Assembly (NCBI GenBank): GCA_009746045.1
Contig: RPFO01000297.1
Span: forward strand, 44,379-108,378
Length of the DNA: 64,000 nt
Direction: 5' to 3'
DNA from: Mesostigma viride
Taxonomy: Eukaryota > Streptophyta > Mesostigmatophyceae > Mesostigmatales > Mesostigmataceae
Shown piece by piece: positions 8,924 to 64,000 of this stretch (positions within the stretch are counted from its first letter, which is position 1; each line of letters opens with the position of its first letter). The notes below the pieces were generated by a model. That model made no database searches. It had not been told where the DNA came from and worked only from the letters and a program-made list of their open reading frames with translations. A program made the position numbers and the translations under genes.

Positions 8924-8933
8924 CGTATTATTG
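8924..8933 (+). promoter_or_regulatory. conserved post-LTR sequence, possible primer binding site
   Basis: CGTATTATTG follows the 5' LTR in both A and B (B: complement 17895-17904), after which the leaders diverge. A primer binding site is expected here, but there is no TGG start as in full-length tRNA 3'-end priming. Priming by an internal tRNA fragment, as in Drosophila copia, would fit but is not shown. Confidence 0.3.
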
Positions 8934-8948
8934 TCTCCTTACATCTTC

Positions 8949-10135: not shown

Positions 10136-10188
10136 GTCAGTTCTTCCTTTTTCCTTCGCCTTTATTGTTGTGTCCCCACTTGTATATA

Positions 10189-11543
10189 ATGCCTCGTGGC
10201 AAACCGGGCGACGGCGACAAGGGCGAGGCGGGGCACCGGCTGGAGAGAGCCAGGAGCCTGGGAAGGGCAAGGAGACGCTGGTGGGAGAGGCGATCCCAGC
10301 CAGCGACGGCGATGGGGGAAAGCGACCAGGGAGCAAGAGGCGACACGAAGACTCGGTGGAGGAGGCGCGCAAGGCGCGGGCGCTGGGGGCATCTGATGCA
10401 ATAACGGTGGCGAATGGGCAACCTGCCGTGGAGAAGCGTAAGAGGGACCCCTCCGCTGACGGCAATGGTAAGAGGCCTCATGTGGATGTGCTCTCCCCTG
10501 TGCCTGCTGGACCAAGTGGTGCTGTTGTTGTGACACCCGCTGTGGTGGAGCCAGTGAAGGCGCTGCCAGGGTCGAGACCTCACATGAGTGCTGTCACTGT
10601 TATGAATGGACAAAAGCCTCTTAACCCACCACTAGCACAGGAAGCTTTGGACAAGTGGCTAGAGGACATGGAGCTTGTTGTGTTCTCCGTGGACCCCACT
10701 GTCAACCTAGTGCAAGTGTTTCACTCGTCCACGTGCAACAGGGACTCGTCAGAGCGTGTCAGGGAGAAGGCTAGGACTGCTGTCAAGGATAAGCTAACCT
10801 GGGCACAGTTCCTGGAAGGGTTGAGGGAGGAGTTCTCTGACAAGGTTCTCAACCTCACCAACTATTATAAGCATCAGTATGACACCTTTGAGATAGTGGG
10901 CCCTGTGGCAGAGGAATGGGCTAGGCTCAACCGTATCAGGGACAAGGGGGCCAAGTATGGCTTCCTGGTCACAGATAGGGCCTTGGCAGACTATTTCCTG
11001 GACCGTATGGGTTTGAGTGTGGATGGGAGGAACGGTGCCCGCATGTTTCTTAACCAGACTGATGGCTCCTTGCGTGCTCTGGAGCTTGTAATCCTCAGCA
11101 TAAGGAAGCCAGATCCTGCCTGCAAGGCTATCCAGTCCCATGGCAGCAATGCCACCTCCGCTGTGCAGGGCCAAGGTGATGTCCCCGGGTACCCAGCCCG
11201 TGATGGGGCAAGGCCCAACAAGCGTAAGCGCTTCAGGCGCCAGAGGCAGGGGGCTCAGGGTGGCAAGGGTGCAGGTTCCCAAGGAGGGGTTGGGGGCCAG
11301 CAAGCTGGTGGTCAGCAGGGTAAGGGTGGCCAAGGGCAAGGCAAGGGCCAAGCTCAAGGCAACCAGGGCAAGCAGGGTGGGCAGCCTCAGGGAGGCCAGG
11401 GGAAGCCTGGCAAGGGTGGGGCTGGGTCTGGGAAGAAGGGTGGAGCATGCTTTGTGTGTGGCAAGGAAGGTCACTGGCGTCGTGAGTGTCCTGACAGGAA
11501 GGCCAAGCCTGCTGGGGCAGGAGGCCAGTCTGGGCAGCAGTGA
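10189..11543 (+). CDS. gag of element A (capsid plus CCHC zinc knuckle)
   Basis: Gag forms the particle and packages the RNA. The start is the ATG of MPRGKPGDG, shared with B. A has one base fewer than B near 10230, so its first 14 or so codons are in a different frame from the rest. After a charged N-terminal region, a retrotransposon capsid-like segment (LTWAQFLEGLREEFSD, then YYKHQYDTFE) spans about residues 200-330. A Gly/Gln/Lys-rich linker follows, and a nucleocapsid knuckle CFVCGKEGHWRREC (C-x2-C-x4-H-x4-C). It ends in TGA, after which the same frame stays open into pol. From about residue 150 on it is almost identical to gag of B. Confidence 0.85.
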
Positions 11544-11547
11544 CTAG
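11541..11547 (+). promoter_or_regulatory. candidate leaky stop UGA-CUA-G between gag and pol
   Basis: The gag stop TGA is followed directly by CTAG, and the same frame continues open through LATSSPVNSQ into pol. UGA followed by CUA is the established type of leaky termination context used by several RNA viruses for readthrough. B keeps the same TGACTAG bases but has a 2-bp insertion just upstream that changes its frame. Confidence 0.5.
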
Positions 11548-13498
11548 CTACATCATCCCCTGTAAATAGTCAATCACCCCTTGGGGAAGGTGTGCTGGAT
11601 GTACATAAGGACGGGGGTGTGCCCCTTGTGCAGCACCAAGGGTGTAAAGATGTTGTTCTTCCACTGGATTGCAATAACAATGCTGCAGCTGAATTCCCTA
11701 TGCCTCATGCAGGTGGTGGGTCTCCAGCAGGTGCTGGCCTGGAGGGCCAAGGGACCTTGCTGGAAGGGCCTGGAGCGGTCCAGGGTGCAGCAGGCCTGAC
11801 TTGGGGCGTCAGGACGGCCTGCAGGGAAGCCCTGGAACCTCAGGAGTGGATCATGTGTCCCCACACACGGTTCAGACGTCTCGCCAGGTCAGTACTGAGA
11901 GAGTGCTGAGCTATGCTGAGGCTGGCCATAGGTTGCATCACATGTTTGGGCATTCTGGGCAGGCAGCAATGTTTGCTTGGAAGCTAGGTAGGGAGCCTTT
12001 GTGGGAGGCTTGCCAGGCTGCTGCTGAGAACTGTGGTTGCCAGGAGAATGCTGTTCACCCACCTCAGTCCCATGCTAGGGAGCCTGCTAGGGAGCGTGGC
12101 GACATCCAGATGGATATCCAGCATATCAGGGGCTTGTATATATTGGTGGGGGTGGACAGGTTCAGCAGATATAGACTGATAGACGTTCTGCCTGGTATGC
12201 AGGAGCACCACTTGTTGTTGGGTATGAAGGCCCTGATCCCAGGCTTTGGGGTGTGCAAGAGTGTGCAGGCAGACTTGCAGTTTGACTGTTTGCTCAAGCA
12301 TCAGGACCAGCTGCCTTGTAAGCTGGTAGTAGTCCCCAGGGAGAGTCATGGGCAGCAAGGGGCTGTAGAGAGATCCATACGTGAGGTGAAGACAGTGGTG
12401 CTAGCAGCAGAGTCAGTGCCACTTGTGGCATCTGCCTTAGAGAGGGCAGCCTGGTGTAAGGGGATAGAAGAGCAGCTGAACCACAGGGTTAACTATTACT
12501 TTGATGGTGTGGCTGTCTCTCCCCTGGCCCTGCAGTATAGCTTATTGCCTGAGAACGTGGTGCAGGCCAGTCTTAGGAAGGCAGATAGGTTATTTGCCCA
12601 GCTGAGACGTAAGGACAAGAACTGGAATGTGCTGAGGCCTCAGGTGGGGCTGAAGGTCAGGATGTGGAAGGAACCATCTATTCCAGGCAAGCGGGGGAAG
12701 TGGCAGGATGGGGTTGTCACTCGTGTGGAAGAAGCTAACAGATCTTGCCTGGTGGCTTTGGAAAAGGATCCAAGGCACGTGTACAGGTTGTCCTGGGCTC
12801 ATGTCAAGGAAAGAAGGCCACATGCAATCTGGCCTGCAGACGGGCCAGGCCCTCCCAGCTGGGTTGAGGAGCCAGGCCAGAGCCAGGCAGCAGCAGCTAA
12901 CAATCCTCTGGTGGTGGATGATGGTCTGTCCCTGCTGGAAGATGACGAGCAGGAGGAGGCTGCTGAAGCAACTGTCACAAGGCCAGAGGGGACGGGGCAG
13001 CCACCTAAGGCCCGGGGGCCTCTCATGGCGGACGTCATCCGAGCACTCATGCGCAGCAAACATGATCCCAAGGTATCCAAGCTCACGGGGTGGGGGTCGT
13101 GCTGGGCAGCTACAATGGAGGTAGATACCAACTCACAGGTGTCTGTCATCAGAGAAGAGGATGCTGTAGGCTTACAGATGTCCCATCCCAGTTGCCTTGC
13201 TGTGTCTGATTTCTCAGGAAAGGTGTCCATGAAGATCCTTGGGGAAGTGAGTGTGCCTATCTTAGGGGTGCCCACCACGTTCTGTGTGGTAGAGGGCTAT
13301 CAGGGGCCTGCCATTCTGGGTCAGAACTTCTTGTGCATGCCAGGGGTTACTTTGACCTCTGATGAGTTGGCACTAGAAGGCAGGCTGGCAGGGGCAGCCT
13401 CCCCCTTGAAAGATATCACTATTCCCAGGGTCTTGCAGTGGCGGTCAAGGCTGTTAGGAGTCAGCCAGCTGAGGGTCCTCAAGGTCAGGAGCCCATAG
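11544..13498 (+). CDS. pol N-terminal half of element A: integrase followed by protease
   Basis: After about 100 linker residues, the frame (shifted by a 2-bp insertion near 11785 relative to B) enters integrase. A zinc-binding region (HRLHHMFGHSG then CGC) is followed by the D,D-E core: D in IQMDIQHIRG, D in VQADLQF, and E in GQQGAVERSIREVK. A basic C-terminal domain with IPGKRGKWQDG follows. Only after it does a retropepsin-like fold appear near the end: MEVDTNSQVSVI, VSDFSGKV, then AILGQNFL. The catalytic box is DTNS instead of DTGA. No protease motif lies between gag and integrase. The ORF ends 13498, out of frame with RT. Confidence 0.85.
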
Positions 13499-13746
13499 CT
13501 GAGGACCTGTTGATCATCCCCCTTTGATCCAAGGCAGTTAGGGGTAAACAGGTACCAGATAGCTGCTCACAGTCCTATTCCCTGGCGCCAGCTAGTCGAG
13601 ATGATGCAAAGCCCCAAGATGGCTAAGGCATGGACTCTTGGCTTTGTTGCTTCTGGGCATGAGTGGATAGTTTCCAACTGTGCAGAACCTGTGGATGAGC
13701 TGCCAGAAGTTCACCAGCTGCTCAGATTGATGTTTGTCCTCAAGCT

Positions 13747-14173
13747 CTTGGAACAAACAGGGATCCACTGGAGACACAGAAAACCCACAAGTATTCTTCA
13801 AGAATTTCTCTAGGCTCTTTCTCCAGATAATGGGGCTGGACCTGAGACCTTCCAACCCTTTCAGAATTCTCAGGTACCTGGCCTTTATCTCTGCTCTCCA
13901 TACAGCAGGTACAGTCACAAAGAAAGGAGGGATATCTCTCCAAGTCTGCCTAGCCTGATCTTGGTCACCCTTGAGAAAAGCCCTCTTGAAATCAATCAGC
14001 ACAGAGCTATAGGGCACACCCTTAACCAGAAAAGACAGAAATATACACAGCAGAATCCTCCACGTGTCATGCAGCATCCCTGGAGTATAGAGCTCCTCAT
14101 CTAACAACTGGCCAGTGCCATGATATACTCGGTTACAACTGGTCTGACATGTGGCACCTGGACACCATCTACC
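13747..14173 (-). other. inverted RT-core segment inside element A
   Basis: About 427 bp of the RT domain lie in the opposite orientation to the rest of A. On the minus strand they encode YHGTGQLLDEELYTPG, VLIDFKRAFLKGD and VDPCLFQ, continuous with sense RT in B. The plus-strand RT ends at FVLKL on the left and resumes at HNGLPVFASLHGDD on the right. This destroys the RT of A. Confidence 0.85.
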
Positions 14174-14174
14174 C

Positions 14175-15122
14175 CCATGCACAATGGCCTTCCTGTCTTT
14201 GCCTCACTGCATGGTGATGACCTTCATCTCATAGGTCCACCAGACTGGGTTGAGGCTGTCTTGGCTAAGATCCAGAAGCGGTTTGAGCTGGGTAAGATAC
14301 AGCACATGGTGGAGAATGAGCCTATGGTCTTCTGTGGCATGCAGGCTACGTTGTTCCAAGCCAAGGGCTCGTGGTTCATCAGGATGGAGGGTGGTAAGGA
14401 CTACCCACAGCAGATTGTAGACGCATTGCAGGAGCCCATCACGCAGGCTAGGTGTGCTACCATCAGGGGCATGCTGGCATGGCTTGCAAGTATATGTGCC
14501 CCTGACTTGCTGGTTTTGAGTCGACTTACTGATTCCCAGCTGGTTGAGGTGGGTGCTGAGAGTGTGGTGCAGGCTGTCATGATGTCTCCCCCTCTTATAC
14601 TGGGTCCTGTGGATTTATACAAGCCCCTTGACATGGTTCTCTATGTAGACAGTTCTATGGATAATAGGAAGGTCACAGAGGTCAGGGGCAGGGCAGCAGC
14701 ATTAGTCACCCTGGAGCAAGATCACACCTCACTTGTTACCTGGTACAGTCGGTTGCAGAACAGGGTTACACCCAGCAGTGATATTGCTGAGTGCAGGGCA
14801 ATCTGTGAAGGGCTGCATTCTGCTCTTTACTTGAGGGAGCTCTTCTACCAGCTATGTCAAGTGGCTTCCTGTAGGTTGCAGCTGCACACACTGCATGGTG
14901 AGGACTGATAGCATGGGCATGGTGCAATTTGTGCACAGGCAGCTGGCCAGGAGCAGGGACCTTGACTACTTGTTGCTCAAGGAGATGTCCTACCTAGCTC
15001 ACATTGAACATGTGCCTGGTGTGGACAACCCTGCAGATGCCCTCACCAAGCTGGAGGAGAAGGCGGAGAGGCAGTACCCCCTGCTCCGTGGGCTCATGGA
15101 CCCCTTACACGGGCGGCCATAG
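14175..15122 (+). CDS. RT C-terminal part and RNase H of element A (frameshifted)
   Basis: The catalytic RT box reads ASLHGDDLHLIG (HGDD where most copia RTs have YVDD). The thumb region and a copia-type RNase H follow (VLYVDSSMD, IAECRAICEGL, RTDSMGMVQFV, and the terminal NPADALTK). A 4-bp insertion near 14893 shifts the frame before RTDSMG, so the product is split into 14175-14908 and 14895-15122. The ADALTK end and overall order identify copia-class RNase H. Non-functional because the RT core upstream is inverted. Confidence 0.8.
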
Positions 15123-16121
15123 AGACCAGGCCTTGCTTCAGCTTGGGTGTCCCCAGTGGGCTGCTTGACCAAAGTACCAAGTGGTGACTGGTGCTTACTG
15201 GTTGACAGCCGGTCCTTCAGGGTTAGGTACACCCTCCTGGACAGGAGTTGGTGTGGAATGTCACTCCTACCAGCTGAGAATAATGCCTGGCCCTCCCCAT
15301 GGGGTTCAGAAGAGTCGCCAGGACTTAAGTCGACGCCTTTGGCCTCAAACAGTTAGGCCATGCAAGGGCAACCCGAATGCTCAGTTCTTACAGGTTGCTG
15401 TATATATGTTTTCTAGTGCTTGTTTCCAACCTGTTGCTAATAAAGAACCTGGTTGTGTGACCATGTGGAACATGGTCGCCAGGGAACCACATTCTGGGTT
15501 ATATAATGCTTGAATAAAACATAATCATGTCATGTCATTCTCATGTTGTTCCCATGGTTGTACTGTTTCTCTTGTGTAAAGTTCCAGGTCACCTATAAAC
15601 CTGGAGGTTGGGGTGGGGTTCAATTCCCCAGCAGAGCCACAGCCTGGCATGAGTGATTCCTGGGCTTAACACCCAGTGAAGACATGGGCTCCCCAATAAG
15701 GCAGTATTTGTATAGGTGCTACCTGAGTCTCTTTGAGCATAAAAGGGAAAGGCTGGCCAAGGCGGGCGCCATAAGAACGGGCGCCTGTGATAACTGTGAA
15801 AGATCAGGAACTCACAATAATACGTTCTTGGCATCCTTTAATCCCAGCCATTGGACTAGGTAATGTGCCTTGACTTTAATCTAACACCAAGTTCCCAAGG
15901 AAAGGTTGGGAGCTGACCAAGGGGTCAGGGGATAACCTGGGGTGACCTCTGATTCACTGGCCAGTACACCTAGCCTGGTCCAAGGGCGTATATGTTGTTA
16001 CCCAAAAGGAGGCAGGACCCTGGGCCCTATCAGGTCTGATCAACCCCAAGGGATCGACCAAGCGGTCTGTGGCTGAGTGAGCACAAGCAAGGTTAGGCTT
16101 GTTTCAAGCTGGTCCAGCTCC
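15123..16121 (+). other. 3' non-coding region of element A
   Basis: About 1 kb separates the RNase H stop from the polypurine tract. Only the first 380 bases (to about 15503) are also present in B. No ORF with recognisable homology is seen. Confidence 0.6.
15439..15444 (+). terminator. AATAAA polyadenylation-like signal in element A
   Basis: AATAAA in TAATAAAGAACC, conserved in B (complement of about 2897-2902). A short hairpin GACCATG-TGGAA-CATGGTC follows. It lies well upstream of the LTR, so it may serve a subgenomic transcript or be incidental. Confidence 0.25.
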
Positions 16122-16139
16122 AAAAGAAGAAAGGGTTGG
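16122..16139 (+). promoter_or_regulatory. polypurine tract of element A
   Basis: AAAAGAAGAAAGGG followed by TTGG directly abuts the 3' LTR start AGTTAGC. This is the expected place for plus-strand priming. Element C has a similar tract. Confidence 0.8.
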
Positions 16140-16783
16140 AGTTAGCATTTTGGGCAACCAATATGCTAAGTGGATGCAGTTTGGAAAGACCTTTCCAACG
16201 CCGTGCTGACCGCCTGAAACAGACAAGGGACGAGAAAGATATCAAGTCCCGAAGTCCTAGCCATCCGTGGCCGACTAGGGTGCAGTCCTCTGGTATAGTG
16301 GACAGGACACGTGGCAGGCCGTGCCTGCACAGGCTTAGCCTGATTATCACGTGACTGTGGTCCACGTAGATCAGAGGAGCAGCAGCCTGTGACTGGTGGA
16401 ATACTGGAGCTGGCACAGGTCTGCAAGGATACTAGGCCTTGCAGGCTTGTGACAGGTCCTGTACTTCCTAGGTTGCAGAGTCTAGGCAAATCCAGTTCGT
16501 CCTGGCTCTGCACTGATGCCAGTGGACGTTGAGGATTTGCTTGCACGCCTGCATGTGCCTCGTCACGCCGATGGGAACGAGGAACAACGCAAAGGATATA
16601 GCTTGGTCATGGGGGATGACCAGCTATCTCGGAAAGCACGAACCGTGGGTGCCACCTTGGTCGTGGAAGTGCCCATTGTGGTCGTGGCCTGGTGAACAGA
16701 TTTAAGGTTGCTGCCTTGCAACATTGGCTAAGACGCGCTGTGAAAGACCAAGAGCTCACATACGTTGGGAGCTCTTTCTAACT
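16140..16783 (+). repeat. 3' LTR of element A
   Basis: Same 644-bp sequence as 8280-8923. One difference was seen, GCATGTGCC here against GCACGTGCC near 8693. It ends CTAACT before the CTGTG duplication. Confidence 0.9.
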
Positions 16784-16788
16784 CTGTG
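16784..16788. other. target-site duplication CTGTG, right of element A
   Basis: Matches 8275-8279. B's ORF1 sequence resumes immediately after it. Confidence 0.85.
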
Positions 16789-17873
16789 CGTGCCACCGGT
16801 GTCCCCACTCGTGGAACTGAGCGGACTTCCTCCGCGTTGTAAGGACCTAGCACACGGCTCACCGGCCTCCCGGCTGCTGTCTGCTCTACCGGCACTCCGG
16901 CAGTCTGGCCGCACTGCCACGGCGATACCACTGAAGGTTTCGGACCCACCGGCTACCACCCCCTCGCCGATCGTTGCGAGACCCCCGACCAATCTCAGCA
17001 AAATCGTGTTCCGGCTCAAATGGTATGTGTAACTCTGCTCTACGCCGAGCTGAGTATCCCTCGTTTGTGCCGTCACCCTCGTCAATCTGCTGCGACGACC
17101 GGGCTATGATGCCCGTTGGTCGGTCCACGAACTGATCGTGGAATTCTTCGTCGGTGACCTCCCGACCGGTGATTACCGTCACCGTTGGCCCAGTCGCCCC
17201 TGGCCTGCTCTGCACCGAGGCTCGGCGTGTCCAAGGTCGACCAAATGCCCGGCGGACGTGTTGTGATAACCCAGTGATCCGCGTGACCACGCGACTCCTG
17301 GATCAGAATGTTTACCAGATGCTCACAAGTTTGAGCCACCACCTCGGCCGAATCCCACGGGCTATCCGCCTCGCGCGTCTGCGCGTCCCGAATGATGTGC
17401 GACGCGTCGGTCCCCTCTCCCAGCGAGCTTGTCGCCACCCAGTGATTATACAGCCTGGTTCCACCTAAACAGATGGCCACCAGTTGGCCCAGCGTCTCTC
17501 GCGCTAAGTCAAGCGCCTGGATGGTTACGTGCCCGCCCTGGTACGCAACTTCTAAACTGTAGATCAACGAAGCAATCTCGTCTCGTATGGCAACGAGACG
17601 CTCCGTGCAGACCCTCCCTGTTTCTCCTGGCGACGTCGTCGCCCGAATCCTCATCACCACGGGGTCGTTCGCCGACGGCCCTGCTGCGTTACCGAACACA
17701 GCCACCCAACCGCCCTCCGCAAGGCCTCGCGCAACGTAGGCCGCTTGCACAAAGGTGGAAGCGTTGGATTGATGAGTATAGGGATAGAAAGCGTTCTCGC
17801 GCGCCGGCAACTCTGGTGCTGCTTCGCGCCTGGGAGACGACTCAGGTGTTTCAACCCGAGCCTCGGCCGACAT
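16789..17873 (-). pseudogene. ORF1 of element B, N-terminal part, interrupted by A
   Basis: Homologue of A's ORF1 at roughly two thirds amino-acid identity. It starts at the Met of MSAEARVE, aligned to MSNVPREQ in A. It shares STFVQAAYVARGL, QGGHVTI, QTCEHLVNIL and ITGREV. A frameshift lies near 17200. The frame VRNLQW then continues where A is broken, and a further shift leads to RPVSRVLGPY, matching A. It stops at the A insertion. The last 20 or so residues and stop lie at about 8274-8205 on the other side of A. Confidence 0.75.
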
Positions 17874-17904
17874 GAAACCCCGCAAACAGGAATGCAATAA
17901 TACG

Positions 17905-18553
17905 AGTTAGCAAACAACCAGAGCTGTGAGCTCCTGGTCTTTCACGCACACAACGGGATGAGCCAAAGTTGCAAGGCAGCAACCTTTTAACCCGTGCACC
18001 AAGCCACGACCACGGTGAGCCGGGTTCCACGTCCAATGTGGGAGCCTCGGTTCGTGCTTTCCGAGATAGCTGGTCATCCCCCATGACCAAGCTATATCCT
18101 TTGCGTTGTTCCTCGTTCCCATCGGCGTGACGAGGCACGTGCAGGCGTGCAAGCAAATCCTCAACGTCCACTGGCATCAGTGCAGAGCCAGGACGAACTG
18201 GATTTGCCTAGACTCTGCAACCTAGGAAGTACAGGACCTGTCACAAGCCTGCAAGGCCTAGTATCCTTGCAGACCTGTGCCAGCTCCAGTATTCCACCAG
18301 TCACAGGATGCTGCTCCTCTGGTCTACGTGGACCACAGTCACGTGATAGTCAGGCTAAGCCTGCGCAGGCACGGCCTGCCACGTGTCCTGTCCACTATAC
18401 CAGAGGACTGTACCCTAGTCGGCCACGGACGGCTAGGACTTCGGGACCTCATATCTTTCCCGTCCCTTGTCTGTTTCAGGCGGTCAGCACGGCGTTGGAA
18501 AGGTCTTTCCAAACTGCATCCACTTAGCATATTGGTTGCCCAAAATGCTAACT
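17905..18553 (-). repeat. 5' LTR of element B
   Basis: About 649 bp on the minus strand, starting AGTTAGCATTTTGGGC at 18553 and ending GCTAACT at 17905. It is nearly identical to A's LTR over the first 500 bases, then clearly diverged in the last 130. The flank on the right is CTAAG; no partner duplication is visible because B's other end is missing. Confidence 0.85.
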
Positions 18554-18571
18554 CTAAGCTATCTAGTCTGT

Positions 18572-51151: not shown

Positions 51152-51671
51152 AGTTATAGCACTCGTGCAATGGATGCGAACGTCTTTTTGATTATGCAAT
51201 GGCTGGCATATATCAATCCATGCAAGCTTGCCAAGCTGGATTGCATGGGCACGTAGGTTAGGGTAACCTAGCTATCCTGTACTAGTGCTAACCAATGAGG
51301 TGCTGGCTCCGTCCAGCTAGATCTACTCCAGCTAGGACTGATACGATGCCCACAGGCACCGGCTGCCTAACAGCACTACGTGGATGGTCCTGGACCTCCC
51401 CTAGGACCTCCGTACAGGACTAGCACTGCAACCACCTTGTGGTCTGCATCACAGCTCATAAACCCTACCACGTGAATACCCACGTGCGTGTGCCCTACAT
51501 ATCTCAGTGCTAATATCTAGCACCCACGTGCCCAATATGGCACGTGCGGATCTAAACCCTAGTAGAGATATGTCCAGTGTACTACACCACCGTCCATGTC
51601 CGTATCCCACTTGGGAGACGGGGACAACGCCACGTGTACTGATAGTCTAGGCCTGAAGTCCTAGAATAACT
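51152..51671 (-). repeat. 3' LTR of element C (inferred)
   Basis: Borders are inferred from a polypurine tract at 51672-51695 followed (on the minus strand) by AGTTATTCTAGGAC, and from the AGTGCTATAACT end at 51152, where the transposase frame is cut. AGTTAT/ATAACT ends mirror the AGTTAG/CTAACT ends of A and B. The second LTR is outside the window. Confidence 0.6.
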
Positions 51672-51695
51672 CCCATTATTACTTTTCTTTTGGGG
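51672..51695 (-). promoter_or_regulatory. polypurine tract of element C
   Basis: On the minus strand CCCCAAAAGAAAAGTAATAA then TGGG, directly before AGTTATTC. Position and content match the tract of element A. Confidence 0.65.
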
Positions 51696-51893
51696 AGTGA
51701 GGGGAAGACTCTTCCCACAACCCACTCATATGCCAACCACTACTGATAAGCAAGGTTCCCTACAGGGACAACCAGGACACTGAAAGAGATGCATTTATAA
51801 AAGCGCCCATAGCTCCTCCGTGTTGGATACAACATCCCCACTGGTTGGGTGCCTGTGTTAGGAAGACCATTGTCAGAAAAAATGACCACACGT

Positions 51894-51899
51894 TTTATT
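51894..51899 (-). terminator. AATAAA polyadenylation-like signal in element C
   Basis: AATAAA on the minus strand about 150 bases after the RNase H stop, in the same relative place as in A and B. Confidence 0.25.
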
Positions 51900-52046
51900 G
51901 ACAAAGAACAAGCCATCAATAAAGGAGGACCCTTCTGACCTCAATCTTTAATGACGCAAAGAGAGTCTTACGGGTGGGACACTTCGGACCCTGCCACCCC
52001 ATGACCACCCTCCTATCTGGTGCTAATAGCCCTAGGCTGAGGCACT

Positions 52047-53630
52047 TCACCCTCTGCCGTTATATGGGTTCATCAGCGTGTATAGGATTCTGTACTGAGG
52101 CCCTGCAGCCTGTGGCACTTTTGTGAGTGCATCTGCTGCATTGTCAGGGTCTCGGATGTGAGTCTTGGACTCCAGATAGGTACACTCCTGCTTGAGGACA
52201 ATCCAGTCCAAATCGGTGTGCACAGCCAAGGGGTTGTCCAGGAAGGAGAGAAGGGATTGACTGTCAGTCAGCAGATGAGATTTGACACCAGCATAACTAC
52301 CAGCCTGATGCTGCAACCACACCAGCAGATGGTTCAAGTACCTGGCATGCAACACAGCTGAGACCACAGCACGGCATTCCGCTACATTGCTGCTGACTGC
52401 CTTGCGCTTGTGGAGTCTGCTGAACCAGGAAACCAAAGATTGCTTGCCAGTGGGGTTAGACAACATAAAGAGACCTGCCTCTCTGGCTTGTACCTTAGTG
52501 ACTACCCGTGACTCCATGGAACTGTCCATCATGCATGTGATGTGGATGGGTTGGAACAGATCCAAAGCATGAAGAATAAGGGGAGGGCCATCATGCAACA
52601 CCTGTTTAATAGCCCTGGACCCTACCTCCAGAAGGACATCATCATCCACTCTGCTGACCACTGCCAGGTGAGGAGCACAAGTGGCACACAGCCAACCTAG
52701 CTTACCCCTAATAGTGGGACAGAGATCAGGAGTGATGTCAGAGGGAAGAACATCTTTGCAAGACATGACATACTCAGGGGAGGCTTTGAGAGAACACACC
52801 CACTCCTTCTGCTCCTTAAACAGGTTCAGAATGATGCCACAGAACTTGACAGGATCTTTTCCCAGCTCCAGCTGCTTGCCTAATTCAAAGCTAGCAGACA
52901 CTTGAGCAATGAAATCCTCCACAGCTGCCCTGGGACCAGTAATGAGCTGATCATCCCCATGCCACACAAACATCATCATACCAGCAGGATGAGGGATGGT
53001 GAAGAAACAAGGGTCAATATCATCATACTGGGCCCCCAGCTTCAGGAAGACCTCTTGGGCAGACAGCCTAAAAATTTTAGGTGCTGACTGAAGCCCTTCT
53101 ACCCCCAAGTTAGGTCTTAGATGAGGTTCCTTGATGTCCCCAGCCCAGACTTTGGGAGTGTTTACCACATAGACTTGACCCCTCCACACCTTTTGGGCTA
53201 TGTCAGGGTTGCCTTTAAGGAAGGCACGCTTAATGTCAGTGGCTTTACACACGTAGTCCTTACCAGCATTCAGATGGTGAAGGAAAGTGGCCAACAGGAC
53301 CTTAAGAGACGTCTGCTGAATACCTGGGGTATACAGTTCAGCCTCTGTTAGCTCAGTGGAGCCCCTGAACTCCGTGACACAAGGTCTGGCATGAAAAATG
53401 GGAGGTGTCCCATCTGCCTGGGGTTTATGCTTGCAGACAAACTTCAGTCTGAGCTTTCTGGCCCCTTGTGGCAGTGCCTCAATCGGTGTTACAGGTGGTA
53501 CCTGGGACTTACTACGTGGATCAGGACAAACCCATTCCTCTCTAGCCCTGTTAAAGGCTTCCATCCATTTCAGAAAACCAATCTGCGTTTGACAGTCTTT
53601 GACCACATCATCATAGGACAAGGGAGACAT
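52047..53630 (-). CDS. reverse transcriptase-RNase H of element C
   Basis: 527 residues in one frame. RT: TEFRGSTELTEAELYTPG, KATDIKRAFLKGN (catalytic Asp box), DPCFFTIP, and MMFVWHGDDQLITGP with HGDD as in A/B. RNase H: ITCMMDSSMES, SNVAECRAVVS, LLTDSQSLLSF and NAADALTKV. The frame is open upstream of the first Met to about 53730, overlapping the end of the protease ORF in another frame (near ACATAAAATAC), so RT may be expressed by frameshifting. No internal stop: the best preserved RT in the window. Confidence 0.88.
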   Translation of the reverse strand: MSPLSYDDVVKDCQTQIGFLKWMEAFNRAREEWVCPDPRSKSQVPPVTPIEALPQGARKLRLKFVCKHKPQADGTPPIFHARPCVTEFRGSTELTEAELYTPGIQQTSLKVLLATFLHHLNAGKDYVCKATDIKRAFLKGNPDIAQKVWRGQVYVVNTPKVWAGDIKEPHLRPNLGVEGLQSAPKIFRLSAQEVFLKLGAQYDDIDPCFFTIPHPAGMMMFVWHGDDQLITGPRAAVEDFIAQVSASFELGKQLELGKDPVKFCGIILNLFKEQKEWVCSLKASPEYVMSCKDVLPSDITPDLCPTIRGKLGWLCATCAPHLAVVSRVDDDVLLEVGSRAIKQVLHDGPPLILHALDLFQPIHITCMMDSSMESRVVTKVQAREAGLFMLSNPTGKQSLVSWFSRLHKRKAVSSNVAECRAVVSAVLHARYLNHLLVWLQHQAGSYAGVKSHLLTDSQSLLSFLDNPLAVHTDLDWIVLKQECTYLESKTHIRDPDNAADALTKVPQAAGPQYRILYTLMNPYNGRG

Positions 53631-53728
53631 GGACGCTATGTCCCATCTACCAAGCCCAAACGCAGAGGGGTGTAGCTTCTGAGAATGAATGAGGGAATCA
53701 ACACAGGGTTCCTGACCTGGGAGGTATT

Positions 53729-55918
53729 TTATGTGACAGCATTGATGGCTGCTTCCAGGCCATCACTGATCTGTGTTAAAGGAATTTTGAAATGGTCCAG
53801 GGTGACCTGCCCCACCCCAGTCACGCTCAACCTCCCAGCTGAGATGACAACTCCAGGGTATGAGACAAATGGTTCCCCCAGCAGTGCATTCCCCTTGTAG
53901 CCCTCTACTACCTGGAAGGGAGTGGGCACACCCAGAATGGGAATTAGCACTTGGCCTTTGACTGCCATTTTTGTTTTGCCTGAAAAATCTGACACTCTAG
54001 CCCAGGGCGAGCGTTGCAGACTTAGGCCAGATACAGCTTGTGCACTGATGATGCTCACCTGTGCCTGTGTGTCTACTGCCAGAATACTGGGATCCTGGTT
54101 AGATTCACCCACAGCATTGACTTGTGCTGCACCTGCTGCCATTTGTGCCTTGGCAGTGTGTGCTCTATGTAGAGCTTTGAGAGCCTCAGCAAATTTATTC
54201 CTGGGGACAACAGGATCTGCTGCTTCGCGTGGCTGTTCCTGAGATGAGGGAGGAGCGACCTGCTGCTCATCCAGTGCACGTTCCTCCTGCCCAGTTGGAC
54301 CGGTGGGCTGTGGTGGGGCTGCACCACTGAGGAACACAGGAGCGTCTATGGTTGTGTTGCTTGCATCAGCTATGTCCCTAGCCAATTCACTGGGTGAGAC
54401 CAACCCACCAGACTGAGGCTCTGAATCCATGTCCAAGAATTCTACCCCTGACACGTCTGCCAAAGGAGGGTAATAAAGCTTCAGTCTATGCTTGCCAACC
54501 ATTCGCTCTCTGTGATGCTGAATAGTCACCGTGTCCCCTGTTTCTGAGAACCTGATGATTTCAGCTGGACCATGCCATCTACCAGAGTGGGCTTTGTTCC
54601 CTTCCCCCTCCCTATAGTAGAGTACCTGATCCCCCACTTCAAACACAGGCCTGGCATTACTCTTATCCTTTTTTGCCAGCAACTTGGCCAAGTGTTGCCT
54701 TTGCGTGTTGTGGTGGTCTAGTACCTCCTGAGAGTAGCTACCTGATTGCAGGCCAATTGATGTGATTTCACCAAAAGGAGAAGACATGAGGGGCTTGGTG
54801 TTCAGAGTTCTGCACACTTCAGCTGCCCACGCTGTCCTATCAGCATAGCTCCCAGACTCTGCTGTCCTGAACTCATTTTTCTTTATGAGGTCCCTGATAG
54901 CACGCATGGTACGTTCAATCATCCCCTGGCGTTCATGATCTTGAGCCCCAGCAATGTCTATCTTGGGCAGATCAGGATAATCTTGTATCCACGTGAACTG
55001 CTGATCCAGCATTAATTTTTCCTGAGGATGATACCGTGCTAGTGCAATCAGCAGGGCTCTGTGCAGTTGTTCATTGGCCATGCCTGGCAAGGGTTCTATC
55101 ACCACAAACCTAGACCAGGCATCTTTTAGGACCAAGTAATACACCGTGTCCTTCACCACGTGTATCACATCCCCTACTAGCTTTCCTCTAGCCAGTGGTG
55201 GGGTGGCCACATGCCATCTCTTGGGTTTAGGTGCATGCAGTTGGCACGCTTCACAGTGCTTCCTGACATGCCTGCACATCTGTTCCAGGTCACGGCCATC
55301 AATTTTGTTGGCCAGCCTTTCTGCCACTGCCTCATGCCCCATTGCCTTGTGTAGCTGTTGGGCTAACCTGGCATAGGAGATAACCTTATCTGCTGCTGCA
55401 TCTACTAAGGAGGCTATAGTGGGATCTTGGGCCACCTGTGCTAACGTCATGTCATAAGCCAGGTCCCAGTCCACTTCCTCACTGTCAGGCAACACAGAGC
55501 AAATAGAAGGTACACGGCCATTGAGAAACCAGGGTACAGGAGACTTACAGTCGTCCTGAGTGCTGGCTTGTTTGTTGGGGCGCCCCGTTGAGGCTCCCTT
55601 CCTGGGCTTGTTGCAGCGTCCCCCTGCAGGTAACGGGTGGCGAGGCTCCCAGCAACCTGGGCATACATCCACATCAGATCCAAGTTCGGGTTTGCCCTTC
55701 CAGCAATCATCCCTCTCATGCCCCTTGCATGAGCACCTGGTGCAATACAGGGTGGAGTCATGAGGCTTACCTTTCTGACTAGGCCCCTGGGAGGGCCCAG
55801 CCTTACTGCCTGGGTTCCCCTTTCCCCCCTTGTCTGATTTCCCCTGCTGCTTGGAGGACCCCCCTGCCTTCTTACCTTGCTGGGGACCCTTGAACACCGC
55901 CTTGACCTGAGCTACCAC
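53729..55918 (-). CDS. gag zinc knuckle, integrase and protease of element C
   Basis: About 729 residues; no ATG at the 5' side because the frame continues from gag. A basic Lys/Gly linker and CTRCSCKGHERDDC (CCHC knuckle) come first. Integrase follows: LHKAMGH with CEAC zinc ligands, then D in VGDVIHVVKD, D in LMLDQQF, E in GMIERTMRAI, and a GRWHGPAEI C-terminal region. The retropepsin-like domain comes last (about 640-715): AVDTQAQVSII, RVSDFSGKT, LIPILGVPTPF and ALLGEPF. The catalytic box is DTQA. The order gag-integrase-protease is the same as in A and B, but without a stop between gag and integrase. Confidence 0.85.
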   Translation of the reverse strand: MVAQVKAVFKGPQQGKKAGGSSKQQGKSDKGGKGNPGSKAGPSQGPSQKGKPHDSTLYCTRCSCKGHERDDCWKGKPELGSDVDVCPGCWEPRHPLPAGGRCNKPRKGASTGRPNKQASTQDDCKSPVPWFLNGRVPSICSVLPDSEEVDWDLAYDMTLAQVAQDPTIASLVDAAADKVISYARLAQQLHKAMGHEAVAERLANKIDGRDLEQMCRHVRKHCEACQLHAPKPKRWHVATPPLARGKLVGDVIHVVKDTVYYLVLKDAWSRFVVIEPLPGMANEQLHRALLIALARYHPQEKLMLDQQFTWIQDYPDLPKIDIAGAQDHERQGMIERTMRAIRDLIKKNEFRTAESGSYADRTAWAAEVCRTLNTKPLMSSPFGEITSIGLQSGSYSQEVLDHHNTQRQHLAKLLAKKDKSNARPVFEVGDQVLYYREGEGNKAHSGRWHGPAEIIRFSETGDTVTIQHHRERMVGKHRLKLYYPPLADVSGVEFLDMDSEPQSGGLVSPSELARDIADASNTTIDAPVFLSGAAPPQPTGPTGQEERALDEQQVAPPSSQEQPREAADPVVPRNKFAEALKALHRAHTAKAQMAAGAAQVNAVGESNQDPSILAVDTQAQVSIISAQAVSGLSLQRSPWARVSDFSGKTKMAVKGQVLIPILGVPTPFQVVEGYKGNALLGEPFVSYPGVVISAGRLSVTGVGQVTLDHFKIPLTQISDGLEAAINAVT

Positions 55919-56114
55919 CTCCTTGATGAGCTTCTTCCTGCTAGGACCTGCACCGTCCTGACCACCCCCCCTTGGACCTTGTTAACCTTGGGTTCCTTGA
56001 CAGTTGAGAAGGGTTCTAGGCTCTGCTGAATGAACAACATGGCCCCCCGAAAATCATCCCACTTGTCTTTAAGGCCAGCCAGCAGAACTGCATTGGTGTT
56101 CTTGTCCAGCTCAG
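55919..56114 (-). pseudogene. gag remnant of element C, cut by element D
   Basis: Minus-strand frame ELDKNTNAVLLAGLKDKWDD then FRGAMLFIQQSLEPFS, a capsid-like end. It is separated from the next frame by an indel in a G7 run near 55965-55971. The upstream part is displaced beyond element D. Confidence 0.6.
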
Positions 56115-58338: not shown

Positions 58339-60247
58339 GCAGCAACCGCAGCAGCAGCAACAGCAGCAACAGCATCAGCAGCAGCAACGGTCACCACAGC
58401 AGCAATGGCAACAGCAGCAACCCCGGATGCAGCAGCAACAACCCCAGACGAGACCACAATGGCTACCACCGGATCCAGAGCAGCAGGGAGACGATAATGG
58501 AGATACCCTGCACTACCGCCAGCAGCAGCCAGTCACCGGGCGGCCAACGCATCCTTGGGCAGGTCGGGGGCGGCCCCAGAGACCTCCACCGGGTCCCCCA
58601 CACCGGGGCAGACGCAGAGTGTCCTTCGGCAGCACGTCCCTGTTACCCACAGCGCTATGGTATTCGGACGAGGAAGGGGAGGCCCCAGGGGCAGATGGCG
58701 AGTTCGATGACCTGGAAGGGACTAACGAGGCGGACGAGGGATCTGTCACGCAGGGCCCGCCCGTTGGTTCTTATAGACCACGGACCAGCCCAGGGGAGAC
58801 CCGGAGCAGTGTCACCACCCGCGACGAGGAGACTCACCCGCCGCCCAGCGCCCGGCACCTCAACCGCAGCGTCTACGGGCGCTTGACAGTAGCGTGGTCC
58901 CTTCGCCCGCGGCCGTTGGTAACCTGAATTTCAGCAGGGTGGCACTGGATGACCCGGGGTACGAACACCCCTCGTCGGTACAGGTGCGCCGGACACACGG
59001 CACACCGGACAGATCCGGATCTCTCCCGCGGTCGCAGCCTCCAGCATTCGGCTCCATCTCCTACAGAGAGGTCGGTGGGCCTAAGCTTAACACGATAAAG
59101 GCCCCACCGATGCCTACCTTCAAGAATGTTCCCAAGCTGCACGCGGATATGAAACCGCGAGAGGTCGACGAATGGGGACGCATGTGGCAACAGCAGTATA
59201 CAGTTTGGTGCAATCACAACAGCTGGGAACTGGCCACCTGTGATTTGATCCCCACGTGGTCAACACCTGCATGGACCCCTCGGTGGTGAGCATCCTGAAC
59301 TGTGAGAGCATCGCATCCCAGTCATACCCGCAAACCGTGGAGGAGCTGATGGACCGGGTGCGCCGCAAGCTGATACCCCCAGACGCGGAGCTCCACGAGC
59401 GGATCGCTTTCGGCAAGCTGCGCCAGGGGACCACCCATATCGCGAGTTTCTGTCCAAGTTTGAGTCCAGCGCCGCTTATCTAACCGACATGACCTGGTAC
59501 GAGTACAAGATCAGATTCATCGAGGCGCTCAGCCCCGAGCTGCAGGACGAGGTATTCAAACACTACGCTGAGGTCCCCTGGAAGGAGTGGGACATCCTGA
59601 ATATCCAGAGATACCTTCTGCAGGTGGCCGACGTGGTGTCTCGCGGGCGCGCACCCTCGGTGCGCCGTTTCTTCAGACCTGCTCCCCGCGACGGGTGAAC
59701 CAGATGTACTCCACTGATTTCGCCGGCGAGGAGGAGGACGAGTACCTCGACGACCCTGACGAGGGCTACACTGACCTGGCGTCAACGCGATCGACGCTAG
59801 CAAGGCGCGCTGCTTCATGTGCAGCGAGGTGGGGCACCTCAAGCGCGACTGCCCCAAGCTCCGGGGCAAGAACGCCAGTCGTGGGACAGGAGAGGGACAC
59901 CCAGTGTTCGTTTCTCCGGCCCGGCCTTCGGCAGCCGCCCCGACTCCTCCGGTCCTCGGGATCGACCCCGCAACGCGGGTGAGCGTGCGGCTCGCCTGCA
60001 GCACGCCAGACAGGCCCCGACGCAGTACCAGCAGCCGCGACCACCCGCGACCAGCTCTACCAAGGGTGTGTTGCGTGCGGTCAACGAGATGGAGGCGCGG
60101 CGACAGTCCTCCTCTTCCGGCCAAACGCAGGCAGTGGCTGGCTACGAGTATGACGACGAGGAGGGGGCTGACGAAGAGGAGGAGGGGGGGGAAGAGGGCG
60201 GGTGGTCGGGCGAGGCGGCCTCCCGTCCCACCGCTCCTCGGGAGTAG
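57917..60247 (+). pseudogene. gag of element D with polyglutamine tract, frameshifted
   Basis: It opens MPTRSQTRNARDIEEETRER at 57917. A CAG/CAA tract encodes about 60 almost uninterrupted Gln (58217-58400). The frame ends at 58927, and capsid-like sequence continues in other frames: PMPTFKNVPKLHADMK and EVDEWGRMWQQQYTVW (to 59250), QTVEELMDRVRRKLIPPDAE (59340), MTWYEYKIRFIEALSPELQD (59489-59698). The knuckle CFMCSEVGHLKRDC is at 59811-59852, and the last frame ends PTAPRE at 60247. At least four shifts are needed, so this copy's gag is dead or the sequence has indel errors. Confidence 0.75.
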
Positions 60248-61545
60248 TAGCCCTGCCCATGGGCTTGGGTCCCGGGGTAGGGGATAGGATAGAAAAATCA
60301 GATGGTAGCCCAGACGCGGAGTCAACTAGAGTAGAGGTAGACGTCAATAACGTGGCCGCAGACGCGTCCTCCCAACCGGCGGCGCGTGCATCTCAAGGAG
60401 ATTCGCGGCATCTGTTCCTTTTCAGCGGAGGGTTATTGGTCCCTCCCACCGTCCTTGATCCGTATTTGAAGGAGAAAACGATCATGGACGTGAAGTTCCT
60501 GGTCGACACCGGCGCCTCCACGTCCTTCATCAACGAGGCCCTGGTGCGTCGGCTGGGCCTGGTACCCCGGCCTCACACCACGGCAGTCTATGTCACCTAC
60601 TCAGACGGTCGGCGACACCAATCGCCGGGCCTAGCAGACATCAAGGGTGTGCTGCAGGGCACGCCGGTGGACCTGGTGGCGACTATTGCGCCCCTGGGCG
60701 CTGCCGACATCATCATTGGAGTGGACTGGTTGGACAAGCAGGATGTGGACATCAGTGTGCGCCGGCGGGTAGTTTGGTTTCCTGATGGTTCATTCTGGTG
60801 CCCTGACAGCGAGTATAGGGCACAGGCCGCGGAGATCCATAACATTACACACGAGCGCTCGGCGGACGGGCCTCGACCAGCGTCCCAGATCCTGATGAGT
60901 AGCAAGACGCTGGCGCGCCAGCTTCGGAAGGGCAAGGAGTACGCGATGTATCGCATAGACCTGGATAGCACTCAGGCTCTGCTTAACGAGATTGGCGCCG
61001 GATTCACACCGGAGGAGCTGACGCGGTTCAATGCCGTCCTGGAGAAGCGCACTACCCTATTTGCGGATCGCACCCCCCAGTTCCCTCCCAATCGATCGGT
61101 GTTGCACCGTGTCCAGCTCCAGGAGGGTTCCGGTCCTACCGTGTCTCCCATGTACCGCATGGGCCCAGTCGAGCTGGTGGAGCTCAAGAAGATCCTCATT
61201 TCACTGCTCGACGCGGGGCTCATTGAACCCAGCAACAGCCCCTTCTCAGCGGGCGTGCTGCTCGTTCCCAAGCCAGGAGGCAAGTGGCGTCTGGTGACGG
61301 ATTACCGGAAGCTGAACGCCATCACCGTCAAGTCCCGGTATCCTCTACCGCGGATCGACGACATCTTCAACCGTGTCCAGGGGGCCACGTGTTTCACCGT
61401 CATCGACTGTGCGGACGGGTTTTGGCAGCTGCGCATCGCCCAGAAGACTGCCACAAGACCGCGTTCGCTACGCCCTTCGGTCACTATCAGTTTCGGGTGG
61501 CGGCAATGGGGCTGTGCAATTCGCCGGCGTCCTTCCAGATGCTGA
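60202..61545 (+). CDS. pol of element D: protease and N-terminal RT
   Basis: Overlaps the gag end in another frame, as expected for frameshift expression. Retropepsin is at about residues 95-190: MDVKFLVDTGASTSFI (DTGA active site) and DIIIGVDWL. RT begins near residue 300: SPMYRMGPVELVEL, FSAGVLLVPKPGGKWRLV, TDYRKLNAITVKSRYPLPRI and FTVIDCADGFWQLRI. A one-base shift near 61450 then leaves the RT frame and the ORF ends at 61545. Typical gypsy protease and fingers-palm sequence. Confidence 0.85.
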   Translation: MVGRGGLPSHRSSGVVALPMGLGPGVGDRIEKSDGSPDAESTRVEVDVNNVAADASSQPAARASQGDSRHLFLFSGGLLVPPTVLDPYLKEKTIMDVKFLVDTGASTSFINEALVRRLGLVPRPHTTAVYVTYSDGRRHQSPGLADIKGVLQGTPVDLVATIAPLGAADIIIGVDWLDKQDVDISVRRRVVWFPDGSFWCPDSEYRAQAAEIHNITHERSADGPRPASQILMSSKTLARQLRKGKEYAMYRIDLDSTQALLNEIGAGFTPEELTRFNAVLEKRTTLFADRTPQFPPNRSVLHRVQLQEGSGPTVSPMYRMGPVELVELKKILISLLDAGLIEPSNSPFSAGVLLVPKPGGKWRLVTDYRKLNAITVKSRYPLPRIDDIFNRVQGATCFTVIDCADGFWQLRIAQKTATRPRSLRPSVTISFGWRQWGCAIRRRPSRC

Positions 61546-61892
61546 TGAATGATATCCTCCGTCCGGTGATGGGCACAGCCCACTTGCCGCAGGTCTCCCA
61601 GGACCTGGCGGACCCGCAGAAGGGGGCGCGCCCGCCCTGGACCTACAAGCGCACGTGCGCGCTGGCGTATCTGGACGACATCCTGGTGTACTCCAAGACG
61701 TTCGAGGAGCACCTAGAGGATGTGGACGCCGTGCTGCAGATCATGGAGGATGAGCACCTTTCGGCGCGGAAAGCCAAGGTGCGCGCCGGCCGCTGCGTGC
61801 CGTTTCTGGGCCATACCTTGTCAGCAGACGGCATCGCGACCGACCCGAGAAGATCGAGTCCGTCCAGCAATGGCCTGTCCCTACGGACGTGA
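61452..61892 (+). CDS. pol of element D: RT palm with YLDD box
   Basis: Continuation of RT in the next frame: HKTAFATPFGHYQFRVAAMG, LCNSPASFQMLMND, then an insertion-like stretch and ALAYLDDILVYSKT (YLDD catalytic motif), LSARKAKVRAGRCVPFLGH and LSADGIATDP. Frame lost near 61845. The next frame (from about 61845) carries GVRSFLGLASYYRRFIP and FLWAEQCQQAFEALK. Confidence 0.85.
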   Translation, partial: HKTAFATPFGHYQFRVAAMGLCNSPASFQMLMNDILRPVMGTAHLPQVSQDLADPQKGARPPWTYKRTCALAYLDDILVYSKTFEEHLEDVDAVLQIMEDEHLSARKAKVRAGRCVPFLGHTLSADGIATDPRRSSPSSNGLSLRT

Positions 61893-62530
61893 AGGGGGTG
61901 CGCAGCTTCCTGGGATTGGCATCTTACTACCGACGGTTCATCCCGCGGTTTGCCACCATCGCCGCTCCGATCAACGCTCTTCTCAAGAAGGGTACCCCGT
62001 TCCTCTGGGCTGAGCAGTGCCAACAGGCGTTTGAGGCGCTTAAGCGCACCTCACCACAGCACCAGTCCTTATCCTGCCGGACCCGGCCCTTCCTTTCGTT
62101 GTGGCTACGGACGCCAGCAAGGTGGCCATCGGGGGGTCCTCCTGCAGGACCAAGGCAAGGGTCTTCAGCCCATCGAGTATATCTCACGCACAATGATTCC
62201 GGCGGAGCGGAATTACCCAGTGCATCAGCAGGAGCTTCTGGCAGTAGTCTACAGCTGCCACACGTGGCGTCACCATCTTCTGGGGGCCCAGTTTTCGGTG
62301 GCCATTAGTGAGCAGGGGGATCTCGACCCCCACCGCCTGGTGATCCACACCGACCACCGGCCGCTCACCCACCTTCTGGTGCAGCCCAACCTGACGCCCC
62401 GTCAAGCGCGGTGGATGGAGTACTTGTCACAGTTTGCGCCATTCAAGATCCAATACGTCAAGGGCGCGGACAACGTGGTGCCAGACGCCCTCTCGCGACG
62501 GGCGGACTATTGGTTCTACGAGGACATGGA
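61889..62530 (+). CDS. pol of element D: RT end and RNase H, frameshifted
   Basis: SFLGLASYYRRFIPRFATIA and INALLKKGTPFLW (RT thumb/connection) in one frame to about 62060, then RNase H in another: VVATDASKVAIGGVLLQD, IEYISRTMIPAERNYPVHQQ, ELLAVVYSCHTWRHHLLG, IHTDHRPLTHLL and NVVPDALSRRADY. Catalytic D, E and D are all present. Standard gypsy order (RNase H before integrase). At least two shifts are needed in this part. Confidence 0.8.
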
Positions 62531-62871
62531 TGTGCTTCATACCACTTGCGTACCAGTGGCCGCCCCGGGGACCGCCTACGGCGCGGAGCCACGGTCTCCC
62601 CGGGCCCGCCACCTGTTTCATCTGGGACACACCACCAGTGATGACTTGTCACCTCTCTTGGAGGAGACGAGTGCCCACGAGGACGTGGACGCCCCCGGGA
62701 GGGGGAGGGATCGCATATGCGCATGCCCCTTAGCCATGTGGTGCCGCCCCAGGGAATTTTTCAGCTTCAGCCGATCGGCCCGCCCACAGTCTTCTCCGAA
62801 TTCGTCAACCAGGCGAGTGCGGAGACAGACCGGCCGCGGACGCGTTCACAGTCACGTCGGAACTGGAGACG

Positions 62872-64000
62872 ATGATCAGTCGTTTCACGGTCACGGAGGA
62901 AGCGGCGCTTGAAGCCATCCGGGCGCATCCCCAGCAGATGGGTGCCTACCCTTGCAAGTTCCAGGAGGGACGCCTGTTCGTGAGTGTCCAGCCGGAGGAA
63001 TGGCGGCTGTATGTCCCGGAGCTTTGTAGGGCCGCCTTGCTGCACGAGCTCCACGATTCGTTTCTAGGCGGACATCAAGGAAGCCACCGTCTTTATCCTC
63101 GGGCCCGCAAACATTTCTACTGGCCAGGGATGAAGGAGTATATTGAGACATATGTGCGCCAGTGCCCCTCGTGCCAGATCATGAAGTCCAGGAACACGGG
63201 CTCGCAAGCCGTCCCCAAGACGTTACCTGATCCGATGGGTCCTTGGGACTCTATCATGATGGACTTCATCGGCCCGTTCAAGAAGACGAAGAGCGGCAAC
63301 AGCATGGTCCTGGTGTTCGTGGACCGCCTGACGCGCATGTGTCACTTGGCCCCGTGTCCGGCCGACCTCACTGCGGAGGAGTGCGCCAAGATATACCTGA
63401 CGCACGTGTTCCGTTCCACGGGCTCAGCCGACAGTTCATCTCTGATCGCGACAAGCTCTTCACGGCCAAATTCTGGCAGGAGTTTTCGAGCTGGGCACCA
63501 AGGTGTCGCTGGGTACGGCCTACCACAGTTCGTCCCATCTGGTGGAGCGGCTGAACCGTACAGTGCAAGAGACCATGCGACACTACACCGACGCGGTGGG
63601 CAGCAATTGGGAGGAACTTCTGGGCTTGGTGGAGTTCTCCCTGAACAATGCTCCCCAGGCCGCCCACGGATTTACCCCTTTTTCCTCAACTCTGGCAGGC
63701 ACCCTCTCACGCCTCCCGACCTGCTTATGAGCCCTGACGGGGAGAGGTCAGGTCAAGCTGGACACACGCCAGGGGTTGATCGCTTGCTGCAGCGGATGCA
63801 CCAGGCTCATAACAGTGCGTCCAGGGCTACCGCGCCGCGACCGACGGTATCTGGAGAGGACAGCCGGCAAGCGGGATAACCGGGCGCCGTCCATTGAGGT
63901 GGGCGATTGGGTCCTGGTGGAGGGCCCACAGATCGGACGATTCTCACACAAGGTGGAGAAGGAGCTGAAGACTAAGCTTCGTCCCATGTTCCTGGGCCCT
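62872..64000 (+). CDS. pol of element D: integrase, partial at window end
   Basis: HHCC zinc domain: LHELHDSFLGGHQGSHRLY through YVRQCPSCQIMK. Core: MMDFIGPFKKTKSGNSMVLV, then (after a shift near 63420) RQFISDRDKLFTAKFWQEFS, and (after another near 63500) AYHSSSHLVERLNRTVQETM with the catalytic Glu, and FSLNNAPQAAHGFTPF. The C-terminal part (VGDWVLVEGPQIGRFSHKV) is reached near 63900 and runs off the window. Whether a chromodomain follows cannot be seen. Confidence 0.8.

Follow-up and report, generated by a model that had tools for sequence, protein, structure and literature searches.

A copia-type retrotransposon lineage of Mesostigma viride with a retropepsin-like domain between integrase and reverse transcriptase

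LTR retrotransposon superfamilies are told apart largely by the order of their domains. In the survey by Neumann et al. 2019 (PMC6317226), GAG-PROT-INT-RT-RH is the order of 5410 Ty1/copia elements, and its passages on filtering state that elements of unexpected order were removed as likely mispredicted. Going by these passages, a lineage like the one described here would have been lost from the survey. Gmr1, a group of gypsy elements whose integrase sits in a copia-like position (Llorens and Moya 2009, PMC2774666, citing Goodwin and Poulter 2002), is the closest precedent that we found for an LTR retrotransposon lineage that breaks the domain order of its superfamily. As that paper presents it, Gmr1 differs from our elements in what is displaced: the integrase of a gypsy element there, the protease of a copia element here. 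Compared with the green-plant Ty1/copia elements as the survey characterises them (PMC6317226), the elements that we found in Mesostigma viride are alike in their RVT_2 reverse transcriptase (RT), their ADALTK RNase H, an integrase upstream of RT, a gag with a zinc knuckle and LTRs. They differ in having the order GAG-INT-PROT-RT-RH and a protease that is not Pol_BBD. We thus rate the lineage as copia by RT, RNase H and integrase, departing from copia in domain order and carrying another sort of protease. Our literature search, with most subscription journals and Repbase reports outside its scope, found no published description of an integrase-protease-RT order in copia elements, and it is on this search that we call the lineage undescribed. 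For Mesostigma itself, 60339 LTR elements have been reported, making up 27.9% of either the genome or its repeats, depending on how the passage is read (PMC6947507); the word "copia" is absent from its text, and our search found no title on copia elements of this organism.

The window that we analysed is a stretch of 64,000 nucleotides of the Mesostigma genome. Element C lies in it on the minus strand as a 5'-truncated copy (51152..56114) that matches another copy in the genome, L063, at 98.5% of DNA positions, and contains a gag remnant, a zinc knuckle, integrase, the retropepsin-like domain, RT, RNase H and a 3' LTR. One open reading frame (53729-55981, minus strand, by Pfam and motifs) holds the CCHC knuckle (55703..55744, a motif at ORF residues 80-93), the integrase N-terminal HHCC region (55196..55384, by alignment with element A) and the integrase core (54887..55195; Pfam rve at residues 266-332, E 1.8e-4), whose residues D271, D326 and E356 align with the same residues in A. 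After these comes the domain of interest (53822..54091), reading VDTQA ... SDFSG ... LLGEPF and matched by Pfam gag-asp_proteas at E 0.045 on the whole ORF (628-674) and at E 0.007 on the trimmed domain. RT, with an HGDD box, and RNase H, with ADALTK, follow at 52047..53762 (RVT_2, E 1.9e-8), also on the minus strand. Pfam and motifs thus confirm what the initial annotation had proposed from the letters, namely that a domain with the motifs DTQA, SDFSG and LLGEPF stands after integrase and before RT, and all three motifs are present as it quoted them. The 3' LTR (51152..51671, minus strand) has the ends AGTTA...TAACT and is 97% identical to the 5' LTR of copies on contigs C1978 and C1913. No 5' LTR was found for the window's C; that C lacks LTRs as a family was considered and rejected, as copies with complete ends carry them. 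The C locus is present twice in the assembly: contig C1908 repeats window 49120-60719 with flanks 99.9-100% alike. The copy L049 is the near duplicate in question, its flanks matching over 4.5 kb (99.9%) and 2.9 kb (100%), and the two loci are either separately kept haplotypes or a recent duplication.

Elements A and B are one family, with A nested inside B. A runs from LTR to LTR on the plus strand (8275..16788, with the identical 5-bp duplication CTGTG at both ends), and its LTRs (8280-8923 and 16140-16783) have one difference in 644 positions. It splits B, on the minus strand, into a 3' part with gag, integrase, protease-like domain, RT and RNase H (2838..8274, a 97-98% DNA match to A that ends at 2838) and a 5' part (16789..18554) with the 5' LTR at 17904-18554. 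A's gag (10092..11543, plus strand) has a CCHC knuckle (Pfam zf-CCHC, E 4.6e-6) and ends in a UGA stop (CAG TGA CTA G). It is followed, on the same strand, by an ORF with integrase and the retropepsin-like domain (11693..13498), in which the domain itself, VDTNS ... SDFSG ... ILGQNF, occupies 13112..13381 (gag-asp_proteas E 0.024 when trimmed), and by RT and RNase H (13514..15116, from tblastn with C's RT and from blastn). In B, the trimmed domain at 4960..5223 (minus strand) is likewise matched by Pfam; the one other match in this piece, weak and outside the domain, is to UBA_RAD5A. The integrase-protease stretches of A and B differ at 9 of 1479 nucleotides, one of them within the domain, and all nine changes are synonymous. 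Between the 5' LTR and gag, both elements carry an additional ORF of about 318 aa (8922..9878, plus strand, adjoining A's 5' LTR; 16955-17876, minus strand, in B). The two copies of this ORF are only 64-65% identical in amino acids, next to identical integrase-protease proteins, and A's has no domain above the Pfam cut-off. This suggests a mosaic element. In A's RT, some 430 nucleotides (13747-14173) are inverted relative to B, despite the near identity of A's LTRs.

A, B and C share one pol order, i.e. zinc knuckle, integrase, retropepsin-like domain, RT and RNase H. Blastn finds no match between C and A, in line with the remark in the initial annotation that its families have almost no DNA identity in common. 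At the protein level, tblastn aligns A and B with C colinearly, with 25-26% amino acid identity over integrase and protease and 27-44%, depending on the piece, over RT and RNase H; the claim that A and B repeat C's order, with DTNS, SDFSG and ILGQNFL as motifs, therefore held. That claim was made for two families, in each of which the order was found; the number of families is three, i.e. C, A/B and a further one, D, found elsewhere in the genome.

Searching the window's own 440-Mb genome, we scored only the best candidates of each family, and the copy counts are lower bounds: at least 65 matches for C (60 of 7508 candidates scored), at least 73 for A (73 of 7180) and at least 38 for D (38 of 10086). 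All 38 scored copies of D are identical over 1208 aa and free of stops, which points to a very recent burst. Uninterrupted frames exist in all three families. L049 of family C has an open frame of 1385 aa with the knuckle at 154, HHCC at 284, the protease-like domain at 709, HGDD at 1081 and ADALTK at 1356, and L063 encodes a Gag-Pol of 2110 aa in a single frame with the same order of motifs. An A copy (L055) has an uninterrupted pol of 1190 aa in the order integrase, protease, RT, and a D copy (L064), found beside a C copy on C1801, has one of 1208 aa. Since intact copies exist elsewhere, the frame breaks in the window copies, including those of A's pol, are damage and not design; a programmed frameshift between protease and RT was considered for these breaks and dropped, other copies being open throughout. 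Pol identity is 32-51% among the three families, D's pol sharing 50.5% of its residues with A's and 33.7% with C's. Pfam places rve before RVT_2 in L049, L008, L047, L063, L055 and L064, with weak rve matches (E 3.8e-4 to 0.18). RVT_2 exceeds its cut-off of 31.6 bits in C (34.6), L049 (32.5) and L008 (32.2) and stays under it in L063 (30.9), D (27.0), B (24.8), L047 (22.2) and L055 (21.8), where E is 2.6e-7 to 1.6e-4. Hence, the elements have the copia-type RT and the integrase upstream of RT that are expected of Ty1/copia, together with a protease-like domain between integrase and RT and an empty canonical place. The integrase-protease-RT order is real and common to the three families. Overall, we consider it probable that they form a Ty1/copia-type lineage with a polyprotein in the order gag - integrase - retropepsin-like protease - RT - RNase H.

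Outside these copies, relatives were few. None was found among viral contigs and prokaryote genomes, and protein searches, in which only the best 6806 to 7994 candidates by common words were scored, gave one match, a Mesostigma gene model (EukProt, Mesvir1) carrying C's RNase H tail. Its end is a piece of C's RNase H and the remainder aligns piecewise to a single contig (75-98%); this annotation seems to mix a host gene and an element.

The initial annotation had also seen no protease between gag and integrase, and our motif searches in A, B and C, and Pfam in A and C, found none either. The triplet D[ST][GAS] does not occur in the three sense frames of the scanned knuckle-integrase stretches of these elements, and Pfam matches nothing in the knuckle-integrase gap of A (two reading frames) or in C's gag remnant. 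In the complete Gag-Pol of L063, Pfam at E up to 1 returned RVT_2, rve and one unrelated weak match. Family D has a single DSGS before integrase, in a stretch rich in S, E and Q at 41 residues from HHCC, which leaves too little room for a protease. As controls we used eight conventional copia ORFs of this genome, belonging to about four families and picked from the best-scoring RVT_2 places. Three of them (L050, L051 and L052) have Pol_BBD (E 1.9e-9 to 4.1e-15), gag_pre-integrs, rve and RVT_2 by Pfam, and five (L056-L060) show the textbook order by motif. The usual order in all eight indicates that our method detects a protease in the canonical place where one is present. These conventional elements share host, superfamily and an HxDD box in RT with the new lineage, but in each of the eight the protease precedes integrase, in each of the three scanned it is a Pol_BBD, and the box is HVDD instead of HGDD. 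The usual RT box is YVDD, and we had taken HGDD as a wholly special trait of the lineage; with HVDD in 8/8 conventional elements, the glycine alone is special.

In an RT tree of 13 rows, unrooted and with several rows being near copies, a single branch with support 100/100 splits the five new-order from the eight old-order rows. Across it, RT identity to the four conventional elements compared is 23-29%. One separating branch together with a shared order makes inheritance of the new order from a single ancestor the simplest reading, and with three colinear families the order looks inherited, as had been proposed from the window.

Is the post-integrase domain a retropepsin? Pfam PF13975 matches the trimmed domains of C, L053, L054, A, B and L055 (E 0.0043-0.079), PF12382 those of L054 (E 0.0014), L053 (E 0.011) and C (E 0.22), and PF13650 those of C, L053 and L054, all these peptidase matches being under the curated cut-offs. 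In family D, Pfam finds nothing in the domain at E up to 1, and no peptidase was found with the whole ORFs L008, L047, L055, L063 and L064 at E 0.5 or 1. Pol_BBD was absent from the lineage at E up to 10 in trimmed domains and at 1 or 0.5 in ORFs. The window also contains a Ty3/gypsy element with protease, RT, RNase H and integrase in the usual order (60172..63876, plus strand; Pfam gag-asp_proteas at E 1.4e-9, RVT_1, RT_RNaseH and Integrase_H2C2), and PF13975 and PF13650 match its protease too. (At 22796-25438 lies an ORF with a LINE-type RT and a weak match to an endonuclease.) Pairwise, shuffle and hhalign comparisons of our domain with this gypsy protease were not significant; by phmmer, even this gypsy protease matched its relatives in the PDB no better than E 0.064. 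A profile of four rows from the three families, run against 177635 PDB sequences, gave 22 matches at E up to 10 (best E 0.0053), 21 of which are named protease or Pol. These are mostly HIV-1 protease variants, aligned in register over their second half; being variants of few proteins, they do not count as independent. Tethered dimers, which are scored twice, give the lowest E-values, and the best single-domain chain has E 0.34. The remaining match, apisimin (E 0.085), is unrelated. An earlier three-row profile had given four PDB matches, none to a retropepsin. Two AlphaFold models of the domain reached pLDDT 34.8 and 40.3, the alignment for the second including the window's gypsy protease, so that even a confident model would have been circular in part, and Foldseek with the latter model had no retropepsin in the best 50 of 299 rows. 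Weighing these comparisons, we think that the domain is very probably related to retropepsins.

Whether it cuts is a separate matter. The catalytic triplet D[TS]G is absent: all 25 matches to a pattern that requires D, leaves the next two residues free and then reads [AS]Q have DTQ or DTN, most of them being near copies. Replacement of the DTG glycine by Q or N possibly means loss of catalysis. The D and T are nevertheless invariant between families, and the domain is under strong selection, relatively stronger than that on conventional copia proteases. Within the integrase-protease ORF, C and A are identical at 41 of 87 positions of the domain (47%), as opposed to 29 of 101 in the integrase core and 24 of 102 in the linker, and none of 1000 shuffles reached the domain's C-A score. 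Between the three families, identity is 46-61% in the domain, 28-44% in integrase and 35-57% in RT. The domain is more conserved than RT in 6/6 pairs of new-order elements; among four conventional elements, the protease is less conserved than RT in 6/6 pairs. Between C and L054, dN/dS in the domain is 0.107. This relatively stronger selection leaves room for a second role. In our judgement, catalysis by the domain is nonetheless rather likely.

The ends of the elements conform to LTR retrotransposons, with direct LTRs and a 5-bp duplication in one copy each of A and C. The C copy is that on C1978, with 525-bp LTRs 99.05% identical and the duplication GTTAC. A duplication of 5 bp is typical of Ty1/copia. 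The LTRs of A and C have the ends AGTTA...TAACT and not TG...CA, and D's LTR starts with AGTTA, as read at 8280 and 16783 in the window and in L064, L066, L068 and L069. High in copy number, the lineage has been active recently and is under purifying selection.

In A/B and D, gag and pol are in one frame with a UGA between them. In the window, the UGA of A's gag at 11541-11543 is followed by CUA G and is in frame with the pol of intact copies. CAG UGA CUA G occurs in 10 of 11 A-family loci, the window's A included, and in the window's B; the one D copy read has CAG UGA CUG at the junction. UGA-CUA is a leaky stop context, and readthrough of the stop at the gag-pol junction of A/B and D is probable from these codons. 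A like arrangement is that of Tca2, reportedly a copia element of standard order. In this element of Candida albicans, gag and pol ORFs are separated by UGA, as in A/B and D, and in yeast its flanking sequence was not sufficient for readthrough of the stop (PMC2194720). Given that result, readthrough in A/B and D is something that we infer.

If the domain works as retropepsins do, it would dimerise in the particle and cut the Gag-Pol precursor, which would free the integrase N-terminal to it and the RT-RNase H C-terminal to it. In family C, this precursor would be made as one Gag-Pol chain, and in A/B and D the in-frame UGA would limit pol, and hence the protease, by readthrough. As for its origin, the Pol_BBD protease that copia elements carry between gag and integrase would have disappeared in an ancestor, and a retropepsin of gypsy type would have been acquired where integrase meets RT. 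We favour such a replacement over a move of the original protease because the peptidase models matching the domain are those that fit gypsy proteases, and never Pol_BBD. A move downstream of integrase, followed by divergence beyond recognition, would account for the empty canonical site and for the one protease-like domain left, all the more so as Pol_BBD is presumably a retropepsin-type domain itself. Yet the conventional Pol_BBD ends in LLS where the post-integrase domain has [IL]LG..F, the only peptidase models that match the domain are PF13975, PF13650 and PF12382, and hhalign found no meaningful match to the conventional proteases, so that we regard a move as unlikely. That a deep copia lineage swapped its own protease for a gypsy-type DT[N/Q] retropepsin at the integrase-RT junction, and is still spreading, has in our view about an even chance of being right as a whole.

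The replaced triplet in 25/25 matches and conservation above that of RT in 6/6 pairs, opposite to the conventional trend, would also suit a retropepsin fold that no longer cuts and serves for structure or binding, the element then lacking a protease or receiving one in trans. We find this doubtful, given that D and T are invariant between families, that the ORFs scanned hold no other protease and that D, with 38 identical scored copies, has moved recently. One might go further and see in the domain an unrelated fold with a DT and an LG motif by chance, as the low-confidence models and weak E-values would allow; but three peptidase models and PDB proteases match it over different halves, which makes such a coincidence quite improbable. 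The window taken by itself might even suggest that nested insertions, deletions or the assembly produced the order by accident: A sits inside B and has an internal inversion, C has lost its 5' end, and its locus is nearly duplicated on C1908. Three colinear families with intact frames and copies at many places already refute this, and we give it next to no credence. Replacement of the copia protease by a gypsy-type retropepsin thus remains the reading that we favour.

A recently active, high-copy lineage of another order implies that order filters can hide real biology. It also raises the question of how Gag-Pol is cut with integrase and RT flanking the protease, and whether DT[N/Q] can serve as an active site. 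If the protease was indeed replaced, domain order would not define a superfamily and the protease would be swappable as a module. In that case, the retropepsin installed in these elements would have become the best conserved part of pol.
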